Source: Deltaproteobacteria bacterium GWA2_45_12 | Lineage (GTDB): Bacteria > UBA10199 | Assembly (NCBI GenBank): GCA_001797365.1 | Contig: MGPH01000066.1 | Span: forward strand, 1 to 43,130 | DNA length: 43,130 bases | Reading direction: 5' to 3' | Shown: positions 4,524 to 42,617 of the stretch, piece after piece | Numbering within the stretch: the stretch's first letter is position 1 | How the letters are laid out: the number at the start of each line of letters is the position of its first letter | Position numbers and translations under genes: made by a program | The notes under the pieces: model-generated | What the model was told of the DNA's origin: nothing | Seen by the model: the letters and a program-made list of their open reading frames with translations, nothing else | The model's database searches: none

Positions 4524-7500
4524 CTATCTTCCCACTCTAAACATTGTTTTAAACCCCTGCCCCATCACTCCACGCCCGAATAAAGACATTCTCCCGGATC
4601 GAAACATCGGTGCGGGTCGTACGGGCTGTACGGGCGCATCTCGTGTTCGCCCATTAACGGGAACGATGCCCTGAGAGCGAACACGAGATGCGCCCTTACC
4701 TATCGCCCCCATCTCACTTCCAAATTCTTCAAAATCGCACCCAGTCTCAAGAACGGCTATTCCGGCTTTATCAAACAGGGGGCTGGGAGCTAGAGGTAGC
4801 TTTTTTCTAGCTTCGGCAGAGGGATCAAAATGTTTCGTATTAAATCCCCCTCTTTCCCCCTTTAATAAAGGGGGACGTAAGGGGGATTTTTTCGCCACAA
4901 ACCCATGCCGAGCCGTATTTTTACTGATGAGGCGGTGCTCGGTAAGGCTTTGGAATACAATTTCCTCCTCGGCAAAAATATCGTGGGGATTAATGATGTT
5001 GCGGATGAAATTCTGGCCTGGGGCCATGACCGTTGAGGCTTTAAGAATGCGGGCGTCTGCATCTTTTTTATTGGCAAAGCCAATCCAACGCACATTGTGC
5101 GAGCTGGCCATTTCAGTTAAGGCTTCATCGTTTTCAGGGTGGGGAACAAAGCGGATATTTTGTCCACTGTTGGTGGAAGCAACCAAACTCTTAAGTCTGA
5201 CGATGTCAGACTTGTCGGACCTGTCTGACGGGTCGGAATGGTCTGACGAATAAGACACCGTTACATCGTTGCCTGCGGCCAGGGCCATACCTAAAAGGGC
5301 GCTTACTTCGGCCAAACTCGAATTTTTTCCAAAAACGATCCACCCATGGCCACGGGCGCCATAAATAAGCCGGTTTTCTTCACCCAAAATATCGGGCTGA
5401 CGAATTTCAGGGTTTGCCATACGGGCTTCTGCACGTTTGGCAACTCTTCTAAAAACATTTTGCGCACTCATATCCCCGGCAAAATTTTTCAATTCAAGTT
5501 CTTGCGTGCTTTCCATGGTGACAAATTGTTTTAAATAATGGGGTCCCCCTGCCTTGGAACCGGCAATGCCGGAAAGATTGATTCCACCAAAATCATGCCG
5601 TCCTACAATGGCTCCCGTAATATTGCGATTGATGTACAAATTGCCGACGCGAATCCATTTGCCCTCGGCTAATTCTTCAGCACTTGGCGACCGGGTGATA
5701 ATTCCACCGGTAAGCCCATACTTGGAAAGCTGAGCCAAAATCATGGCTTCTTCCAAAGTGTCCACACGGGTGAGGGCCAGAACCGGTCCGAAATTTTCAT
5801 CCTGAAAGATTTCGCTGCACCATTGTTCGGGAGGAATTTCAAAAATGGTAGGGTTGATGAAATGGCCGGATTTTTGACCCACCGCAGGACTCGACCGCCC
5901 TTCGACTACGCTCAGGGACCGGTCGCTGAGCGGAGTCGAAGCGATATTTCTACCATCCAACAACAACACTCCCTGATTCTCCTTCACAACCCGCCCAATC
6001 AACGCCATCAAACGATCATGGGCTTCTTTGTCGATAACGGGGCCTGAAGCATTTCCAAAATCACGCACATCCCCAAATTTTAAATCCCGCGCCGCCTTGA
6101 TCAAACGCTCAATCTGCTTGCGAACATGGTCTTCATCCCCCACAAAAATAAGCCGGTCGAGCGCCGAACATTTTTGTCCGGAGAAGCCAAACTTGGATTG
6201 AAGAATATATTTCACCACATCATCGGGATGCGCGTCGCGGTCGATGATCATGGTATTTTTTCCACCCATTTCGGCAATCACATTCACGCCGCGTGGCATG
6301 GCTTCGGCATAAATTTTGTTGTAGCCAACATCAAAGGAACCGGTGAAGACCACGGATTTGACGTCAGGGTTTTGGACCAAGGCCTTCCCTACAACCCCGT
6401 CCCCTGAAACATAATTGATGGCTCCGGCAGGAACACCGCCCTTACGAAGAATATCGTTTAAGAGAGCCCCGATCAGGGGTGTTTGTTCTGCAGGTTTCAT
6501 GACCACCGTGTTTCCTGTAACCAGGGCGGCGGCCACCATACCGGTCAAAATGGCGAGCGGGAAATTCCAGGGGGCAATCACGGCAGTGACCCCACGGGGT
6601 TTGATAAGAGCGGGATTTTCATTGGTGAGCTTGACCGCTTCACGAGCGTAATACTCCAAAAAGTCAATGGCCTCAGCCACATCGGCATCGGCTTCACGCA
6701 CGATTTTGCCGGATTCAAGCATGATAAGGGCCGTAAGCTCCGCTTTTTGTTGTCGCATGAGAGCAGCGCTCTTCAGAAGTGCCATCGCTCTTGTTTCTAC
6801 ATCCACTTTTTCCCAGCTTTTAGCATGTTGCTTGGCCAGGCTTACAGCGTGATTGGCATCTTCCGGATTTCCCTTGGAAACACTTCCCAAAACTTCATCG
6901 GGATTGGAAGGGTTGGTAACAAGCATCCGTTGGTTTGCACCATCTAGGTGAATGGGTTGGTACTCGGCCAAGGCCCGTTTTATTTTTTCTAATTCTTCTT
7001 CACGCGAAAAATCGGTGAGGGGTTCATTGACAAAAGGATCGGCAAGTGAAGTGACTTGTTCAGGATGAGCCACCCTATCCCTATGGCCATGCCACAGATT
7101 GGGCGTACGTGGATTTTGCATAAGGGTGTCGAAGTCAACGCCCTGGCGGCTCATGTTTAAAAATGATTGTTGAGAGGCATTTTCCAAAATGCGGCGGGCC
7201 AAATAAGCCATGCCGGTAAACAAGCTTCCCACCGGTGTGTAAATACGATGACGGATTTTTTCACGAACCAGATTCCGTCGGACCTGTGGATCGTTTAAAC
7301 CAAAGAGCTCCTGAAGTTCAGTCGCCACACCTCGTGCGCGTGCATGGGCAATGGCATAGGAAAGAGAACGAACATTGTGGGAGCCAATAGCGGCCCGGAG
7401 GGAACCCGCTTTGTTATACAACACATCGATAAGCCGTTCAAAATTGGCATCACTCATCTGTTTTTTGGGGAAAACCGAGTGTGGTAAACCGCGTTGGGAG

Positions 7501-10433: not shown

Positions 10434-10682
10434 TTAAGCGGCAAAACGGTGAAGGATTTCAGAGATAAAAGTTTGATAAGCGATACCCAGCTTTTTGGCT
10501 TTTTGCTTTAACCGTTCTAGATCGTTAGTATTAACCCTTATACTTAACAGGGCGTCTTTTTTTCTGTTTGCTATTGCTTGGGCGATACTTGAAAATTCAG
10601 CTGGTGTTGCTGGGCGGTATTTCCCCTTGATTAAATCCATCTCAATGCTTTTTTCATATTTGTTCAATTTTATTTTATCCAT
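10434..10682 (-). CDS. BrnA/CopG-type antitoxin
   Basis: This 82-residue protein has a C-terminal ribbon-helix-helix pattern (LSIRVNTNDLERLKQKAKKLGIAYQ..ISEILHRFA), as in CopG-like DNA-binding antitoxins. It overlaps the end of the upstream toxin gene by 8 nt, the toxin-first order typical of BrnTA modules. It would neutralise the toxin and repress the pair. The assignment rests on size, order and the helix pattern. Confidence 0.8.
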   Translation of the reverse strand: MDKIKLNKYEKSIEMDLIKGKYRPATPAEFSSIAQAIANRKKDALLSIRVNTNDLERLKQKAKKLGIAYQTFISEILHRFAA

Positions 10683-10938
10683 TTAATTTTCCCTCCTTCC
10701 ACATTTTTGTATATTTCCGACTTGGAAAAAGCGTTTTTAGGAATATCTCTTCCCGCTGCATGACACAGGGGACAACCCAGATGTAATTCTTATGTTCAAA
10801 TAGCAAGACTTTCTGGTTTTTTCTCATTGGATGAGTCATAATTCCAACCATTTTTGACTGAATAATTTCCTCAAAAGAAACTCCCCGTTTTTCTTTGAGC
10901 TGCCTACTTTTTTCCAAATCCCAGCGTATCTCTTTCAT
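10675..10938 (-). CDS. BrnT-like toxin
   Basis: 87 residues. The N-terminal WDLEKSRQLKEKRGVSFEEII matches the WD..K...L...HGVSFEEA signature of BrnT-type toxins (RelE-like fold ribonucleases). The middle is diverged (LLFEHKNYIWVVPCV). No Shine-Dalgarno precedes the ATG; instead a promoter-like pair ends 9 nt before it. It pairs with the overlapping antitoxin gene. Confidence 0.75.
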   Translation of the reverse strand: MKEIRWDLEKSRQLKEKRGVSFEEIIQSKMVGIMTHPMRKNQKVLLFEHKNYIWVVPCVMQREEIFLKTLFPSRKYTKMWKEGKLNG

Positions 10939-10947
10939 TGCTTATGA

Positions 10948-10977
10948 AATGTAATACATTTTGTATGTCTACTGCAA
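10948..10977 (-). promoter_or_regulatory. Promoter/operator of BrnTA-like pair 1
   Basis: On the minus strand TTGCAG is followed after 18 nt by TACATT, and the ATG is only 9 nt downstream. The palindrome AATGTA-A-TACATT (10948-10960) overlaps the -10 element and is a plausible operator. This is the weakest of the promoters proposed for these modules. Confidence 0.45.
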
Positions 10978-11021
10978 CACTATTTTCTCATCCCCCCCCT
11001 TTATCAGCCAAAGGCTAATCC

Positions 11022-11090
11022 GGAGGAAGATTTTCCCCATGCAAATTTTAAAACTTGAATATTGTAAAGACCCGACCCCCCAACTCTGTT
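11022..11090. repeat. Island-bracketing direct repeat, left copy
   Basis: The core reads TTTTCCCCATGCAAATTTTA, then AAACTTGAATATTG, then TAAAGACCCGACCCCC. It matches 13312-13361 in the same orientation with about three mismatches in 50 nt. Confidence 0.8.
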
Positions 11091-11096
11091 CTGCTA

Positions 11097-11140
11097 CCCA
11101 TGATTTTCAAGCCCTTGGCCGCGTGCCTGACCCCATCCGC
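11097..11140. repeat. Dispersed repeat, copy 2 (CCCATGATTTTCAAGCCC type)
   Basis: Same sequence as 10387-10418 with one mismatch, then CCTGACCCC instead of CCTGGCACC. Confidence 0.8.
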
Positions 11141-11170
11141 CGGGGCCGAACAAATACTACAAAATAAAAC

Positions 11171-11199
11171 TTGATATATTGTATATATATTTTTAGAAT
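11171..11199 (+). promoter_or_regulatory. Promoter of BrnTA-like pair 2
   Basis: TTGATA, a 17-nt spacer and TAGAAT; the ATG at 11211 follows 11 nt later. The spacer is an alternating AT palindrome (ATATATTGTATATATAT) that could be an operator. No clear Shine-Dalgarno is present. Confidence 0.6.
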
Positions 11200-11210
11200 A
11201 CCTTTGGAAT

Positions 11211-11516
11211 ATGAATCTCATATATAATGGCTTTGAATGGGATAAAGGAAATACCGATAAAAGTTTTCTAAAACACGGGGTTTCTTGCGAGGAAGCTGAA
11301 CAAATATTTGGTCTGGATCCTTTTATTTTTGAGGATTCCAAACATAGTACGCTACAGGAAAAAAGATTCATTGCATTGGGAGAAACTATTTCGGCAAAAC
11401 TGTTATTTATTGCTTTTACATTAAGAAAAAATCTCCTTCGCATTATCAGCGCAAGGCCAATGAGCCAAAAAGAAAGGACATGGCATGAAAACCAAAGAAA
11501 AAAAGAAAGTTTCTGA
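11211..11516 (+). CDS. BrnT-like toxin
   Basis: 101 residues. FEWDKGNTDKSFLKHGVSCEEA is a clear BrnT N-terminal signature (WD..K...N...HGVS..EA), and the C-terminal RIISARPMSQKER matches the RIISAR..s..E motif of the family. BrnT toxins are ribonucleases that stop translation. The downstream antitoxin gene overlaps by 32 nt. It is transcribed opposite to the pairs on either side. Confidence 0.88.
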   Translation: MNLIYNGFEWDKGNTDKSFLKHGVSCEEAEQIFGLDPFIFEDSKHSTLQEKRFIALGETISAKLLFIAFTLRKNLLRIISARPMSQKERTWHENQRKKESF

Positions 11517-11745
11517 TGCCCAAGTGGCCAATTACTGGGCAAGCCATGATGCCACTGATGTTTTGGATTTAAACAATGCCCCGCGGGTTAATGCTATTTA
11601 TGAGCCCCCCGTGCAATCCATTTCACTACGTCTGCCCCTGCCTTTACTCACAAAAATAAAACGGGTAGCTGCAAACATGGACATTGCTTATCAAGCTCTT
11701 ATTAAGATTTGGCTGAATGAAAAAGCGAAAGAAGTGATGAAATAA
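11485..11745 (+). CDS. BrnA-like antitoxin
   Basis: 86 residues. After a charged N-terminus it shows a ribbon-helix-helix pattern (VQSISLRLPLPLLTKIKRVAANMDIAYQ..IKIWLNEKAKEVMK). It overlaps the upstream toxin gene. The 3' two thirds of this gene (from 11566) is duplicated at 12392-12565. Confidence 0.85.
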   Translation: MKTKEKKKVSDAQVANYWASHDATDVLDLNNAPRVNAIYEPPVQSISLRLPLPLLTKIKRVAANMDIAYQALIKIWLNEKAKEVMK

Positions 11746-11804
11746 TAATTCTCCATAACTTTCATTCCCCTGCCCGTGTGCCTGGCACCATGACTTTTAC
11801 TTTG

Positions 11805-12020
11805 CTATGGCTGAATGACAAGTTGGCCGTCTTCGGCTGCAAATTTCTTCAGGGTTAAGTTGATGAGGGTTTGATAAGGAATACCGCATCGTTTGGACAT
11901 CTTTTGGTAAAATTTTAATACATCTTCATCCAAACGAATTGTTTTTTGAATTTTGTGAGAACGATAAAATTTGCCACGCACTCCCTTTGAAAAATCATAT
12001 TCCTTTTTCATATTGTTCAA
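11805..12020 (-). CDS. BrnA-like antitoxin
   Basis: 71 residues. IRLDEDVLKFYQKMSKRCGIPYQ..INLTLKKFA is a CopG-like ribbon-helix-helix segment with the PYQTLIN motif common in BrnA/CopG antitoxins. It overlaps the toxin gene by 26 nt. Confidence 0.85.
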   Translation of the reverse strand: MNNMKKEYDFSKGVRGKFYRSHKIQKTIRLDEDVLKFYQKMSKRCGIPYQTLINLTLKKFAAEDGQLVIQP

Positions 12021-12282
12021 TTTCCCTTCGTGTTGCCAAACGGGCTGAGATGATACGGATCAACTCTTCTCCGTTGGTAATTTCAATATAAGTGTGAACC
12101 ACAATCAAGGTTTTCCCATGAGGGGTGTGCCCCATGGTGATCCATCTTTCCTGATCGCCTGACTTTTTGTCCAAAACAGACAAATGCAAAGGGTCATCAA
12201 ATACAGTTTGTGCCATTTCGAACGAGACATGGTGTTTTTTGATATTTGATTCAGCCTTCTTAGCGTCCCATGAAAACAACAT
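11995..12282 (-). CDS. BrnT-like toxin
   Basis: 95 residues with both BrnT signatures: FSWDAKKAESNIKKHHVSFEMA near the N-terminus and LIRIISARLATRREIEQYE at the C-terminus. Its ATG directly abuts a palindromic operator and has no Shine-Dalgarno sequence. It is the best match to the BrnT family in this window. Confidence 0.92.
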   Translation of the reverse strand: MLFSWDAKKAESNIKKHHVSFEMAQTVFDDPLHLSVLDKKSGDQERWITMGHTPHGKTLIVVHTYIEITNGEELIRIISARLATRREIEQYEKGI

Positions 12283-17024: not shown

Positions 17025-18332
17025 TCATCCCAATTTATTCAACCATTTCTCCGGCAGGGCCACGGTTACGTAAGCTCCTTTCGTGGTGTTTTTGACTTTG
17101 TGGACGTGGCCATGGGTGTAAAGTTGAGACAATTTGGCTCCGTAAGGATGGGGCAAAAATAATTCTGTTGTTTTTAGATTTTCTTGCAGCGTGGTGTCGA
17201 TGGCTTGAAGGAGTTGGGGGACGCCAACTCCGGTGAGGGCACTAAGGAAAAGGGGATTGTTAAAATCCCCCTCTGCTCCCCCTTTTTTAAAGGGGGACGT
17301 AATTCGGGGACTGTTATTTTCCCCCTTTAAAAAAGGGGGATTAAGGGGGATTTTTTCAATTCGATCCATCTTATTGCGAACCGTTATCATTGGAAGATGG
17401 TTTAATTTTAATTCCTCCAAAACCTGATTGACTACTTTGATCTGGTCTTTGTAGTGCGGGCGCGATCCATCAACTACATGAAGCAAAATGGCTGACTGAC
17501 GCACTTCTTCAAAAGTTGATTTGAAAGCTTCCACCAATTGATGGGGCAAATTGCGGATAAACCCTACCGTATCCGAAACAAGAACTTTTCTTCCCGATGG
17601 CAAACTGATCCGTTTGGTTTTGGGGTCAAGGGTGGCAAAAAGTTTGTCTTCGGCTAAAACATTGGCTTCGGTTAATTTGTTGAACAAGGTGCTTTTGCCG
17701 GCGTTGGTGTATCCAACCAATGTAATGGTGGGAATGGGCAAGGTCGCCCGCTTTTTACGATGAATTTCACGGGAGCGTTCCACTTTTTTAAGATCATTTT
17801 TAATATGCGTGATGCGTTCGCGGACGCGACGACGGTCGACTTCCAACTGGGTTTCTCCCGGTCCACGCAACCCCACCCCACCCCCTCGTTGCTTGGAAAG
17901 ATGGGTCCAGGCCCCCACCAAACGGGGATACAGATACTGATATTGGGCCAATTCGACTTGAAGCTTGCCTTCCTTTGATTTGGCATGAAGCGCAAAAATA
18001 TCCAGGATAAGGCTGGTGCGGTCGATGACATGAATTCCCCACGCTTCTTCAAGTGCCTTGTTTTGGGAAGGCGCCAAATTGACATCAAAAATGACAAGAT
18101 CGCATCCTAACAATTTTAACTTTTCTCCTATTTCTTCAATTTTCCCTTTACCAATGAATGTAGCTGCCGAAATTTGCCTCACTTCGACCATTTGCGATGC
18201 GGCAATGATAACCCCTGAGGTTTGGGCCAAAGCATTCAATTCATCCAAAGACTCAAGAGCCGTTTCTTTGCGTTGAAACGATGTGATAAGCCCAATGAGA
18301 TAGGCTGTTTCTTGTTTTTGGGAACGGATCAT
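17025..18332 (-). CDS. hflX: GTPase HflX with an in-frame repeat insertion
   Basis: HflX binds the 50S subunit and splits stalled ribosomes under stress. 435 residues. The N-terminal HflX domain is followed by the glycine-rich linker RGGGVGLRGPGETQLEVDRR and the G domain: GYTNAGKST (G1, about 205), DTVGFI (G3, about 252), NKMD (G4, about 319) and SAL (G5). Between G4 and G5 about 30 residues are encoded by two family B palindromes (17263-17354), starting LNPPFLKGE; normal HflX proteins have a short loop there. The GTP-binding motifs are intact. Next gene on this strand upstream is dnaE. Confidence 0.96.
   Translation of the reverse strand: MIRSQKQETAYLIGLITSFQRKETALESLDELNALAQTSGVIIAASQMVEVRQISAATFIGKGKIEEIGEKLKLLGCDLVIFDVNLAPSQNKALEEAWGIHVIDRTSLILDIFALHAKSKEGKLQVELAQYQYLYPRLVGAWTHLSKQRGGGVGLRGPGETQLEVDRRRVRERITHIKNDLKKVERSREIHRKKRATLPIPTITLVGYTNAGKSTLFNKLTEANVLAEDKLFATLDPKTKRISLPSGRKVLVSDTVGFIRNLPHQLVEAFKSTFEEVRQSAILLHVVDGSRPHYKDQIKVVNQVLEELKLNHLPMITVRNKMDRIEKIPLNPPFLKGENNSPRITSPFKKGGAEGDFNNPLFLSALTGVGVPQLLQAIDTTLQENLKTTELFLPHPYGAKLSQLYTHGHVHKVKNTTKGAYVTVALPEKWLNKLG
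17263..17354. repeat. Double family B element in hflX
   Basis: Two self-complementary C5T..A3G5 units face each other (arms near 17263-17298 and 17319-17353, 20-nt loop), forming a long inverted repeat. It is translated across its whole length. Confidence 0.9.
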
Positions 18333-18397: not shown

Positions 18398-21300
18398 TCA
18401 CACCGAAAACTCCACCACCCGATATTGAAAGAGCGTATTGATTTTAGCCGTGAGATGGTCGGTGTTTTCAAGATTGATACGGTTTGGAAGTTCCATAATA
18501 GTTTCACTTTCGTTTGATTTCAGCACGTGTAAAAAACCGGAGCATGCACCGGGGAACTCGTTTAAAATTTGGTGGAAACTTTTAAGCTTTTCTTCCGTGC
18601 ACAATTGAAGGGGGACTTTAAAATGGACCGATTTTGTTTTTTGATTGAGGTAGGTATGAAGCAAAGTAATATCCTGGGCGAGAATTTTTGCCCCATCTTC
18701 GGTCCGATCAACAGTGCCTGAAAGCACCAGGGGTTTATCCTGGGTTAAAACCTCGGCTGTTTTTTGGTAAACATCCGAGAAAATGATCACCTCGATGGAT
18801 CCGGCCAAATCCTCAAAAGTGATGAAAGCCATGCGGCTTCCCTTTTTTGTGGTGATTACTTTACACTGCGACGAAAAACCGCTCAGAAGCACCTTCGTTT
18901 CTTGTGGCAATGTGGCACAAAGAGCCGTTGTTGAATTGGCGACTCTTCTTAATTCTGATTCATAAACTTTAAGGGGATGCCCCGAAAAATAAAAACCCAT
19001 GGCCTCTTTTTCAAAACTTAGCTTTTCATTTTCATGCCACTCAAGCGTGCCCACCTCTAAACCCACGGGCTTCGGGCTTTCCTGCACCATATCAAAAATA
19101 TTCTGCTGGCCCAGCCGGTCTTCATCCTGTTTTTTCACCGCCCAACCGACAACGCCTTCAAGAACATCAAACAGGGCTTTACGCGAAGGATGCAAAGTAT
19201 CAAAAGCGCCGCTTTTGATGAGGGATTCAAGGACACGACGGTTGACCTTGTGGTGGTCAATGGAATGGCAGAAATCAAAAAAAGAATCGAATCGTCCTTT
19301 CTTGTTTTTACGAACCTCGACAATGCATTCAATGGCCCCCTCACCCACTCCTTTTAAGGCACCCAGTCCAAAACGGATTGTGTAGGGGTCAATCACCGAA
19401 AAACCGAAATAACTTTCGTTTACGTCGGGAGCTAAAACCTTGATGCCGTGTTTTTTACAGTCATCAATGTAAAAAAGAATGCGGTCCGTATCATGCATTT
19501 CACAGGTAAGAACCGCGGCCAGATATTCGGCAGGATAATAAGCCTTAAGATATGCGGTTTGATAGGAAACAAGGGCATAAGCCGCACTGTGGGATTTGTT
19601 AAAACCATATTCGGCAAACTTGGCCATTAAGTCAAAAATCTTTTCGGCCTTGTCCTTGGGCACTTTTTTCTCAGCGGCTCCTCTCAAGAAACGTTCGCGT
19701 TGGGCTGCCATTTCCTCCGCTTTTTTCTTTCCCATGGCCCGGCGTAGAAGATCGGCTTCTCCAAGGCTGTAACCGGCCAGCACGGAAGCAATCTGCATCA
19801 CTTGTTCCTGATAAACAATAACCCCATAGGTGTCTTCCAAAATGGGTTTGAGTTGGGGAAGTTCGTAAATGATTTTTGTCTTGCCCTGTTTGCGATTGAT
19901 GAAATCATCCACCATCCCGCTTCCCAGGGGGCCGGGACGATAAAGAGCCACCAAGGCGACCAGGTCTTCAAAGCAGGTGGGCTTAAGCCGGGTCATCAGG
20001 TCGATCATGCCGGAACTTTCCAGCTGAAACACCCCCACCGCATCCCCCTTGGTGATGAGCTCAAAGACTTTTTTGTCATCAAGGGCAATGTCCAAAATAT
20101 TCAAGTCAACCGATTGGGTGCGTTTGATAATGCGAAGCGTGTCGCAAATGACGGTGAGTGTTTTAAGCCCCAAAAAGTCAAACTTGATCAGGCCGATTTT
20201 TTCAACGGCCTTCATGTCAAACTGGGTGACGACGTCTCCGTTGCTTCCCTTGTAAAGCGGAAGAAAATGGGAGAGAGCCTTGTCCGACATCACCACACCG
20301 GCGGCATGGGTTGAGGCATGCCGGTTTAAACCTTCCAGTTTTCGGGCAATTTCAATCAGGCGGGCCACCTGGGCATTGGATTCCATCAACTCTTTAAAGC
20401 GTGGCTCTTGGGTCAGGGCGTCTTCAAGAGTGATGTTGAGTGAGTTGGGCACCAACTTGGCGATTTTATCGACTTCGGCATACGGAATTTCCATCACACG
20501 GCCCACATCGCGCAAAACGGCTTTCGCTTTCATTTTTCCAAAAGTGATGATTTGGGAAACATTCCCGTATTTTTGCGCGACATATTGGATAACTTTGTCG
20601 CGCCCACGCATGCAAAAATCGATATCGACGTCCGGCATGCTGATACGTTCCGGATTTAAAAATCGTTCAAATAGTAAATTGTAGGGGATGGGATCGAGAT
20701 CGGTGATTTGTGTGCAATAAGCCACAAGAGAACCGGCGGCGGAACCACGTCCGGGGCCTACAGGAACATCATGGGTTTTAGCGAATTGGATAAAATCAGA
20801 CACGATCAGAAAGTAACCGGAAAATCCCATTGTGGTGATGACTTCGAGTTCTATTTTAAGACGTTGTTCGTAATTTTTTTTGAGCTTTTCAACTTCCCCC
20901 TCTCCCGGCCTCCGGCCACCCTCCCCCTCAAGGGGGGAGGGATGGGGAGAGGGTGTTATTTTCCTATTCTTTAAAATAGTGGGCCAGCGTTGTTCCAAAC
21001 CAATATGGGCTTGTTCAATAAGGTATTCATCCAAAGTTTTATTTTCAGGGGGAGCAAATTTGGGAAAGTGGTAGGTTTTAAGGTCGAAATCAAAATTACA
21101 TTGGCTGGCAATCAACTCTGTATTGGTGATGGCTTCAGGAATATATTGAAAATCAGTTTCCATTTCTTCCGGCGTTTTAAAATAATAGCAATCCGTCGAA
21201 AATTTTAAATGATCCCCCGTCCCATGCAAGGTGGCTCCTGTTTGGATGCATAAAAGAGTTTCAAAAGCCTCGGCATCGTCCCTGTTTAAATAATGACAAT

Positions 21301-26360: not shown

Positions 26361-26494
26361 ATATCCCCCTTTAAAAAAGGGGGACTAAGGGGGATTTGTT
26401 CCCGTATCATTTTTGTTTTTTCTCTTTTACCTTTATCCCCGATACGGATACGGAAACAAATCCCCCCTACCCCCCTTTTTTAAAGGGGGATAAT
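26361..26494. repeat. Long inverted repeat of family B
   Basis: The arms at 26361-26408 and 26447-26494 are nearly complementary over about 48 nt (ATATCCCCCTTTAAAAAAGG, then GGGATTTGTTCCCGTATC), with a 38-nt loop. It lies between the YfgM-like and BamB-like genes. Its GGGGGATTTGTTCCCGT string recurs at 35290-35310. Confidence 0.88.
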
Positions 26495-28901: not shown

Positions 28902-29004
28902 TTTTTTGTCAAAGGAAAATATATGCTTATTTCTTTATCTCTTTAATATCCCCCCTCCCTTGAGGGGAGGGGGTTAGGGGGAGGGTGATCTTGGCATACT
29001 TGAA
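28902..29004. repeat. Cassette module L1 (left end of the DUF559 unit)
   Basis: TTTTTGTCAAAGGAAAATAT, a TTTCTTTATCTCTTTAATAT stretch, the family C palindrome CCCTCCCTTGAGGGGAGGGG, then GGTGATCTTGGCATA. It closely matches L2 at 29401-29502. The palindrome codes for the C-terminus of the DUF559 protein. Confidence 0.85.
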
Positions 29005-29323
29005 AGATAACTTCCAAGACTATATCCAGATCTTGCAACACTTGATAATCCCAAAATCTCAAAACCTGATATCCTTCTTTTTTCAGCCACTCATCCCTTT
29101 GTTGATCTTTTTCAATTTGGTCCAAATGCTGGCTACCATCACATTCAATGATGACACGTTTTTTAAAGCAGACAAAATCAACAATATAATTTCCGATAAT
29201 TTGTTGCCTTCTAAATTTTAACTGTTCAAATCGTTTAGCTCTCAAGGCATTCCACAGCCAATTTTCTGTATCAGTTGACTGTTTTCTCAAATTCTTTGCA
29301 AATCTCATTAATTTTTTGTTCAC
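28943..29323 (-). CDS. DUF559 PD-(D/E)XK endonuclease-like protein
   Basis: 126 residues. The fold is the Vsr-like restriction endonuclease type of DUF559: N-terminal TENWLWNALRAKR..LKFRRQQIIGNYIVDFVCF, then IIECDGSQH (Asp49, Glu60, Asp62, His66 as likely active-site residues) and a C-terminal GYQVLRFWDYQVL. The preferred start is GTG at 29323 with GAGGGTGA 6 nt upstream. That Shine-Dalgarno belongs to module R1, and the last dozen residues (PPPNPLPSREGGY) and stop are encoded by module L1. Function in vivo is unknown; no transposase or methylase gene is next to it. Confidence 0.85.
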   Translation of the reverse strand: MNKKLMRFAKNLRKQSTDTENWLWNALRAKRFEQLKFRRQQIIGNYIVDFVCFKKRVIIECDGSQHLDQIEKDQQRDEWLKKEGYQVLRFWDYQVLQDLDIVLEVIFQVCQDHPPPNPLPSREGGY

Positions 29324-29329
29324 CGATCG

Positions 29330-29409
29330 TCACCCTCTCCCTAACCCTCCCCCCTCAAGGGGGAGGGAATAATAATCTCAAAATAATTTATTTTTAAAAG
29401 ATTGTTGTC
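29330..29409. repeat. Cassette module R1 (right end of the DUF559 unit)
   Basis: TCACCCTCTCCCTAACCC, the CTCCCCCCTCAAGGGGGAGG palindrome, then AATAATCTCAAAATAATTTA and TTTTTAAAAGATTGTTGTC. Repeated at 29518-29590. Confidence 0.85.
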
Positions 29410-29502
29410 AAAGAAAAATATCTATTTGATTTTTGTCTCTTTAATATCCCCCTCCCTTGAGGGGAGGGGGTCAGGGGGAGGGTGAGCTCGGCATATTTAA
29501 AA
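29401..29502. repeat. Cassette module L2 (left end of the empty unit)
   Basis: ATTGTTGTCAAAGAAAAATA, TTTGTCTCTTTAATATCC, the CCTCCCTTGAGGGGAGGGG palindrome and GGTGAGCTCGGCATATTTAA. Homologous to L1, but followed by only about 15 nt before module R2 rather than by a gene. Confidence 0.85.
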
Positions 29503-29517
29503 AAACATCCACTCAAT

Positions 29518-29590
29518 GACTCTCCCTTCCCCCCTCATAAAGGGAGAGAGTAATAACCTCAAAAGGATTTATTTTTAAAAGATTGTTGTC
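29518..29590. repeat. Cassette module R2 (right end of the empty unit)
   Basis: GACTCTCCCTTCCCCCCTCA, TAAAGGGAGAGAGTAATAA, then CTCAAAAGGATTTATTTTTA and AAAGATTGTTGTC, matching R1. A partial third L module (29581-29621) follows before trxA. Confidence 0.85.
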
Positions 29591-29654
29591 AAAGAAAAAA
29601 TATCTACTTGATTTTTTGAGGAGGCTACGGTTTATTTTTAAAAAAGGAGATTTT

Positions 29655-36591: not shown

Positions 36592-36643
36592 CCCCCAACC
36601 CCCTCTTAGTTTAAGAGGGGGCGAGGGGGAGTTAATCCCCTAC
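36592..36643. repeat. CCCCCTC/GAGGGGG palindrome between purD and purE
   Basis: CCCCCTCTTAGTTTAAGAGG followed by GGGCGAGGGGGAGTT. The minus-strand start of this block, TTG-TAG-GGG, provides the purD stop codon. Confidence 0.8.
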
Positions 36644-42493: not shown

Positions 42494-42505
42494 TATTATT
42501 TATAT

Positions 42506-42617
42506 CCCCTCCCCCTTGAGGGGGGAGGGTTAGGGAGAGGGTGGCCCCGGGATCACCCGCCCCCTAACCCCCTCCCCTTTCCGCGTACCGGAATCCCGCT
42601 GCGCGGGGCAAGGGAGG
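42506..42617. repeat. Family C and related GC palindromes before the deacetylase gene
   Basis: CCCCTCCCCCTTGAGGGGGG then AGGGTTAGGGAGAGGGTG, followed by CCCCCTCCCCTTT and a CCCGCTGCGCGGGG hairpin. It matches the modules around the DUF559 gene, without a nuclease gene. Confidence 0.85.

Follow-up and report, generated by a model that had tools for sequence, protein, structure and literature searches.

A DUF559 nuclease gene between inverted triplex-motif repeats and a gene-less copy beside it: a candidate mobile unit of RAYT/REPIN-like habit

RAYT (TnpA_REP)/REPIN systems combine a nuclease gene lying between inverted palindromes with many gene-less doublets, most of them intergenic, and the RAYT enzyme is of the HUH (Y1) tyrosine class. 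MITEs of DDE insertion sequences follow a similar plan: they are short, carry no gene, have inverted ends and are partnered by an autonomous element. The PIT/TM repeats of E. coli (PIT/TM_ECO; Hoyne and Maher; Holder et al., 2015, PMC4666352), built from a C arm, a loop, a G arm, a short loop and a third strand that mirrors the G arm, have been described with neither an associated gene nor a mobile element. Among the 23 copies in MG1655 there are five inverted doublets, made up of two motif types, and the sites are unstable; according to the authors, the repeats show no link to transposons, phages or plasmids, and the genes beside them have no function in common (PMC4666352). Earlier work cited in the same paper found no promoter or terminator activity for the motif.

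The DUF559/YcjD family (PF04480), which includes VsrA of Caulobacter and 3hrl of Neisseria, appears in papers as orphan PD-(D/E)XK or Vsr-like nucleases with no link to flanking repeats. The Caulobacter protein VsrA is responsible for the SOS response upon loss of a cytosine methyltransferase (PMC12907096), and DUF559-bearing segments of Legionella are intragenomic recombination hotspots (PMC12308824). In the open-access papers searched, we found none linking DUF559 to these repeats.

At the locus described here a DUF559 gene lies between inverted palindromes. As in RAYT/REPIN, the nuclease gene is accompanied by many gene-less doublets, largely in intergenic DNA, but the enzyme is a PD-(D/E)XK/Vsr-like nuclease and the unit ends are C-rich hairpins, each with a mirror-repeat foot. 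The gene-less units, being short, inverted at their ends and paired with a presumed autonomous form, also recall MITEs; unlike those of DDE elements, they show no target duplication, their partner gene is not a DDE transposase, and their ends are hairpins with a foot.

Two units at one site

The window (the whole stretch of DNA analysed, 43,130 nucleotides) carries two such units side by side, together with duplicated outer flanks, in the order S, gene-bearing unit, S, gene-less unit, partial S:

28903..28947, plus strand: outer flank S, copy 1; site-specific, elsewhere outside the element
28951..29367, 417 bp: unit 1, gene-bearing; hairpin, TTA, foot, DUF559 gene (minus strand), inverted foot, TAA, hairpin
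28951..28988, plus strand: unit 1 left end; hairpin CCCCCTCCC-TTGA-GGGGAGGGGG at 28951-28973, TTA, foot GGGGGAGGGTGA at 28977-28988
28943..29323, minus strand: open reading frame of the DUF559 (YcjD-like, PD-(D/E)XK/Vsr-fold) nuclease gene, 126 aa; PF04480, E 6.8e-40
29330..29367, minus strand: unit 1 right end, inverted; foot at 29330-29341, TAA, hairpin at 29345-29367
29368..29447, plus strand: outer flanks between units 1 and 2 (R-outer and S copy 2)
29448..29485, plus strand: left end of unit 2, gene-less; hairpin at 29448-29470, TCA, foot at 29474-29485
29486..29516: unit 2 core, about 31 nt foot to foot, still resembling the nuclease gene's 3' end
about 29517..29550, minus strand: unit 2 right end, inverted and partly decayed; CTCTCCC..GGGAGAG stem
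29551..about 29617, plus strand: outer flank 3' of unit 2 (R-outer and partial S copy 3), the end of the array

The first-pass annotation had described a nuclease cassette next to a gene-less copy of itself, and both the sequence and a repeat finder bear this out. The left and right ends of unit 1 are 85% complementary over 46 nt, the left end of unit 2 is 91% identical to unit 1 over 55 nt, and a 58-nt direct repeat joins 29361-29418 with 29542-29599. The same annotation defined its left and right modules by the shared strings TTGTCAAAG..TTTAATAT and CTCAAAA..TTTATTTTTAAAAG; these strings are present, but as the duplicated flank of a single site and outside the element. A 21-nt flank string matched the window locus alone among all loci fetched, and within the window's own genome long alignments extended into the flank only for the units of this site. 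Because the long outer strings are missing from other copies, the element proper begins at the C-run.

Unit 2 measures about 103 bp against 417 bp for unit 1, and the difference of 314 bp is close to the 324 nt of the DUF559 domain, in agreement with the earlier estimate that the two units differ by roughly the gene body. The annotated spacing of about 15 nt inside unit 2 needs revision: it holds only if a shared GGCATAYTTRAAA is counted with the left module, and foot to foot the core spans about 31 nt. This core aligns locally with the 3' end of the gene at a score of 33 (random 52-mers from the window, mean 19; p 0.004), a resemblance which suggests that unit 2 arose when the gene was deleted from a duplicated gene-bearing unit.

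At each end a linker of 2-4 nt separates the hairpin from an inward-facing, G-rich foot, whose sequence mirrors the G arm of that hairpin, T opposite A being allowed. Feet match their own arms with a mirror score of 0.836, against 0.729 (sd 0.007) when feet are swapped; in types II to IV alone (defined below) the score is 0.841 and the highest swapped value 0.756. By this layout, which the window ends have in full, the repeats are PIT/TM "intrastrand triplex" repeats, and each end could fold as an intrastrand triplex; triplex formation was shown in vitro for the E. coli motif (PMC4666352). Ends of type I share with PIT/TM_ECO the hairpin, loop and third-strand arrangement and nearly the same sequence, and both occur as inverted doublets of two unlike motif types. 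Here, in contrast to PIT/TM_ECO as described, they are the ends of DUF559-bearing units and come in several sequence types. No family was found in an Rfam scan of the window at gathering thresholds.

The window protein matches PF04480 at 135.8 bits (cut-off 20.6; NCBIfam also places it in DUF559), and its only family matches are DUF559 and MTES_1575. It resembles the DUF559/YcjD family in sequence, fold and invariant residues, of which R13, E20, D49, E60, D62, H66 and D73 are all present; the left element end encodes its C-terminal tail, HPPPNPLPSREGG. An AF2 model (pLDDT 87.7) matches 3hrl (the Neisseria DUF559 protein), 3r3p (I-Bth0305I) and 1vsr (Vsr). After 3hrl the closest fold is that of I-Bth0305I, an EDxHD homing endonuclease (TM-score 0.78 by target length), which a sequence profile also retrieves (E 3.5e-5). 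The two share a catalytic fold and detectable sequence similarity; I-Bth0305I was deposited as a mobile-intron protein, whereas the window gene encodes 126 aa and is intergenic between palindromes, and empty and occupied sites of such cassettes exist in Pseudomonas. Among known defence families there was no full-length match, and partial matches to the DpdF and mREase_II models were weak.

Dispersed repeats and their match to the nuclease

The repeats fall into sequence types I (CCCTCnCC), II (CCCTTTnnnAAAGGG), III (CTTTGTAAGG) and IV (CYTTAnnnTAAG), with two further rare types. The exact 19-mer hairpin core of the window, CCCTCCCTTGAGGGGAGGG, has 13 copies in the 2.46 Mb genome, and its reversed control, with up to 3 mismatches, has none there. 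Palindrome copies that had been annotated in dnaE (20919-20941) and at 42506-42529 are indeed present, each within a type I doublet:

20895..20960, minus strand: type I doublet in frame inside dnaE, encoding about 21 residues (PSPHPSPLEGEGGRRPGEGE) that E. coli DnaE lacks
42499..42578, plus strand: dispersed gene-less type I doublet

Repeats of three families are found together in this genome. In the window, type II repeats also lie in frame in hflX (17262-17345, minus strand; NPPFLKGENNSPRITSPFKKGGAEGDFNN) and in putA (about 4838-4890, minus strand; RPPLLKGERGGF), a dispersed type II doublet occupies 26365-26489, and a type IV copy 36602-36618. Several small open reading frames close together at 10434-12282 resemble BrnT/BrnA-type toxin-antitoxin pairs.

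Gene-less units measure about 65-130 bp, have defined and mostly unlike ends, which they share with gene-bearing units, and lie in unrelated flanks; many repeat copies sit at gene ends. In relatives rich in copies the repeats often form inverted pairs with feet inward. Two type III genomes (G029 and G042) have mostly unlike ends, CTCCTTTGTAAGGAG facing CCCCTTTGTAAGGGG, with flanks that vary from copy to copy. Across 40 doublets, whose edges are T-rich/A-rich, target-site duplications of lengths 1-9 did not rise clearly above permutation. Judged by their layout, the gene-less units are MITE- or REPIN-like, the DUF559 gene apparently taking the place of the core in the autonomous form. Dispersed gene-less inverted doublets are a feature of REPINs, as are GTAG-type tetranucleotides of REPs; no such tetranucleotide lies beside the hairpins at 28951-28973 or 29345-29367. 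Type III feet do read GGTAGA, which makes this difference from REPs less sharp outside type I.

We then compared flanks at other DUF559 loci by aligning each upstream flank to the reverse complement of the downstream one, a score of at least 16 counting as matched. In relatives (60 genomes) matched inverted flanks surround 30 of 52 DUF559 loci but 0 of 425 equal-spacing windows nearby, and flanks swapped between loci match in 5.5% of cases. Named GTDB records gave 47 of 79 loci (one an N-run artefact) against 10 of 2575 positional controls; over both sets the controls matched in 10 of 3000. These loci come from Aminicenantes, Proteobacteria, Planctomycetota, Chloroflexi, Spirochaetes, Omnitrophota, Nitrospirae, Bacteroidetes and others, and the set is biased to type I, the contig scan having been run with a closer alignment after a multi-clade one proved too diverse. 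Between about a quarter and a third of DUF559 loci in the two sets have no detectable flanking repeats. The first-pass annotation had suggested looking in relatives for palindromic modules around DUF559 genes, and had named unrelated flanks there, or confinement of the modules to this locus, as counting against its proposal; inverted modules of the same kind surround such genes in relatives and in many other phyla, and they are widely dispersed.

Nuclease clade and repeat type co-evolve. On a maximum-likelihood tree of 41 nucleases the six palindrome types, assigned by eye from the flanks of loci that are phylogenetically non-independent and often in fragmented assemblies, need 7 changes (minimum 5), against a mean of 21.9 for shuffled labels, none of which needed as few in 200 trials. 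A Mantel test over all loci, with GC controlled, gave a partial rho of 0.51 between nuclease and palindrome similarity (0/2000 permutations); the values were 0.32 in relatives alone (0/2000) and 0.18 in the type-I-biased GTDB set alone (8/2000). Types I, II and IV all occur in the window's genome itself, and each is accompanied by a nuclease of the corresponding clade. Two further DUF559 genes lie there, each beside C-rich palindromes of another sequence.

Copy number follows the same pairing. Among the 60 genomes, with each gene's own flanks subtracted, gene-less copies are more numerous where the matching nuclease clade is present (type II, p 1e-4; type III, 2e-6; type IV, 2e-5), reaching 233 matching copies per genome, and for type III the six nuclease-bearing genomes hold the six highest counts. 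Some genomes are rich in repeats but have no detected matching nuclease; one of them (G006) has 56 type II repeats and no DUF559 gene that we could find. Orphan repeats of this kind could reflect nuclease loss, assembly gaps or another mover.

Related sites in Pseudomonas and E. coli

Four Pseudomonas species, P. alcaliphila among them, carry a DUF559 cassette between two conserved genes, with 87-90% identity over 1.5 kb. At the same site in G125 the cassette is absent, the flanks are 92% and 88% identical, and a small REP-like repeat stands instead, so that the pre-insertion sequence is not readable from it. This provides the comparison of occupied and empty sites for which the earlier note had called. 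Three further Pseudomonas species have at this site (that of locus L143) an apparent RAYT gene between its own REPs (L330, L335 and L349; one, when checked, matched NF047646, E 4.5e-50); RAYT-REP and DUF559 cassettes thus occupy one niche. In L328 (G139:C1:803548-807107), again at this site, the DUF559 gene is split by an insert of about 2 kb, with an overlap of about 12 nt between the matched query ends.

In E. coli one of the 23 MG1655 copies, TM no. 9 (1,351,204-1,351,239), lies 168 bp from ycjD (1,351,407-1,351,760), the E. coli DUF559 gene. A complete TM remains at the 3' end of ycjD in two other strains; in MG1655 it is partly lost. Each of the four TM doublets tested varies from strain to strain, at least one of its flanks being conserved, and in some alleles an internal deletion has left a single composite hairpin. 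Strains with ycjD mostly have 4-6 detected TM places and strains without it mostly 1-3 (60 rows sampled), a difference confounded by lineage that we therefore do not take as proof. We rejected clean excision of ycjD, since the eefRABCD operon is present in the alternative allele (PMC12817139).

A mobile unit weighed against other readings

We conclude, at a probability of about 0.7, that the locus comprises an autonomous mobile unit and its non-autonomous derivative, in a RAYT/REPIN-like system built on an unrelated nuclease. The same pairing had been proposed from the locus alone, and it is supported by the ends common to both kinds of unit and by copy number that tracks the matching nuclease clade. 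The likeness to RAYT and REP that had been drawn holds as analogy, down to a shared Pseudomonas intergenic site; it fails as homology, for the enzyme is PD-(D/E)XK/Vsr-like and not HUH, and some repeat-rich genomes have no detectable Y1. The system would thus work like RAYT/REPIN, but with a different enzyme it is not a member.

Computation establishes the architecture and its breadth, the co-evolution of nuclease and repeat, the copy-number link, the dispersal into unrelated flanks and the presence or absence of units at orthologous sites; that the nuclease moves the unit we infer. Co-evolution suggests that it would recognise the structured end of its own repeat type, and the nuclease fold and invariant residues that it would cut at or beside that end. 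The cut unit, or a copy made during host break repair, might then be joined at a new site, usually A/T-rich, intergenic and without target duplication, and one nuclease would serve gene-bearing and gene-less units alike. PD-(D/E)XK nucleases do not join strands by themselves, which leaves the insertion step unexplained and counts against a mobile unit, as do the lack of target duplication at the junctions, the loci without flanking repeats and the repeat-rich genomes without a detected matching nuclease.

Homing offers another account of the gene's position, which is precisely where a short core separates the two ends of a gene-less unit: the nuclease would cut an empty doublet and repair would copy the gene in, the repeats themselves spreading by other means. 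Such a course would suit an enzyme whose closest characterised structure is the catalytic domain of I-Bth0305I. We think it improbable, since the gene-less unit of the window keeps similarity to the gene's 3' end, which suggests a lost gene and not a vacant target, repeat numbers follow the nuclease, and the empty Pseudomonas site lacks a doublet of the DUF559-cassette type. Still less probable is a mover other than the nuclease, a RAYT or a transposase acting in trans, with DUF559 as captured cargo or a defence gene. Although Y1 transposases were detected in 48 of the 60 genomes and the protein has its weak DpdF and mREase_II matches, no known defence family matches it over its full length, RAYT cassettes come with separate REPs of their own, and four genomes without a Y1_Tnp match (G007, G018, G035 and G042) hold 63, 20, 10 and 97 nuclease-matching repeats. 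On the strength of these four we rejected RAYT as the general mover.

A host maintenance nuclease that processes triplex- or hairpin-forming DNA, the repeats being its regulated or tolerated substrates, would agree with the Vsr-like fold, with the instability of TM sites in E. coli (PMC4666352) and with TM alleles that resemble a deletion between two hairpins. Patchy presence, several distinct copies in one genome, broken copies, and presence/absence at orthologous sites are atypical of a maintenance gene, and we regard this role as very unlikely. We give the least credence to the repeats as ordinary terminators or structural DNA with the nuclease gene as a passenger tolerating intergenic positions, even though many copies lie at gene ends and similar repeats were taken as terminators in Enterobacter sp. 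638 (PMC2869309). That account leaves unexplained the clade-matched repeat types, the matched inverted flanks against near-zero positional controls, the in-frame copies in dnaE and hflX, and presence/absence; the E. coli motif, moreover, acted neither as promoter nor as terminator in earlier work that PMC4666352 cites, and the co-evolution of type and clade and the tracking of the matching nuclease by repeat number are outcomes that speak directly against it.

If the mobile-unit reading is true, a REPIN/RAYT way of life has arisen on at least two occasions from unrelated nucleases, and the common DUF559 family, whose function is unknown, gains a biological role. C-rich triplex-capable repeats gain a candidate enzyme, their E. 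coli member is linked to ycjD, and the question becomes testable in K-12; pairing with the nuclease probably explains the spread of this long-known orphan repeat class. We give slightly better than even odds to a further claim, that these units form a class of mobile element without known transposase or recombinase, whose sole driver is a small PD-(D/E)XK (Vsr/homing-like) nuclease able to recognise triplex-forming ends. Such a class would account for E. coli PIT/TM and related C-rich repeats across many phyla.

Two Legionella DUF559 loci (L113 and L108) have much longer, near-perfect inverted flanks, with scores of 120 and 71, as if the genes were enclosed in a larger transposon. At L029 (G009), whose DUF559 gene is closely related to that of the window, there is an outer pair of AT-rich palindromes (AGTTGTTTATGATCAACT).
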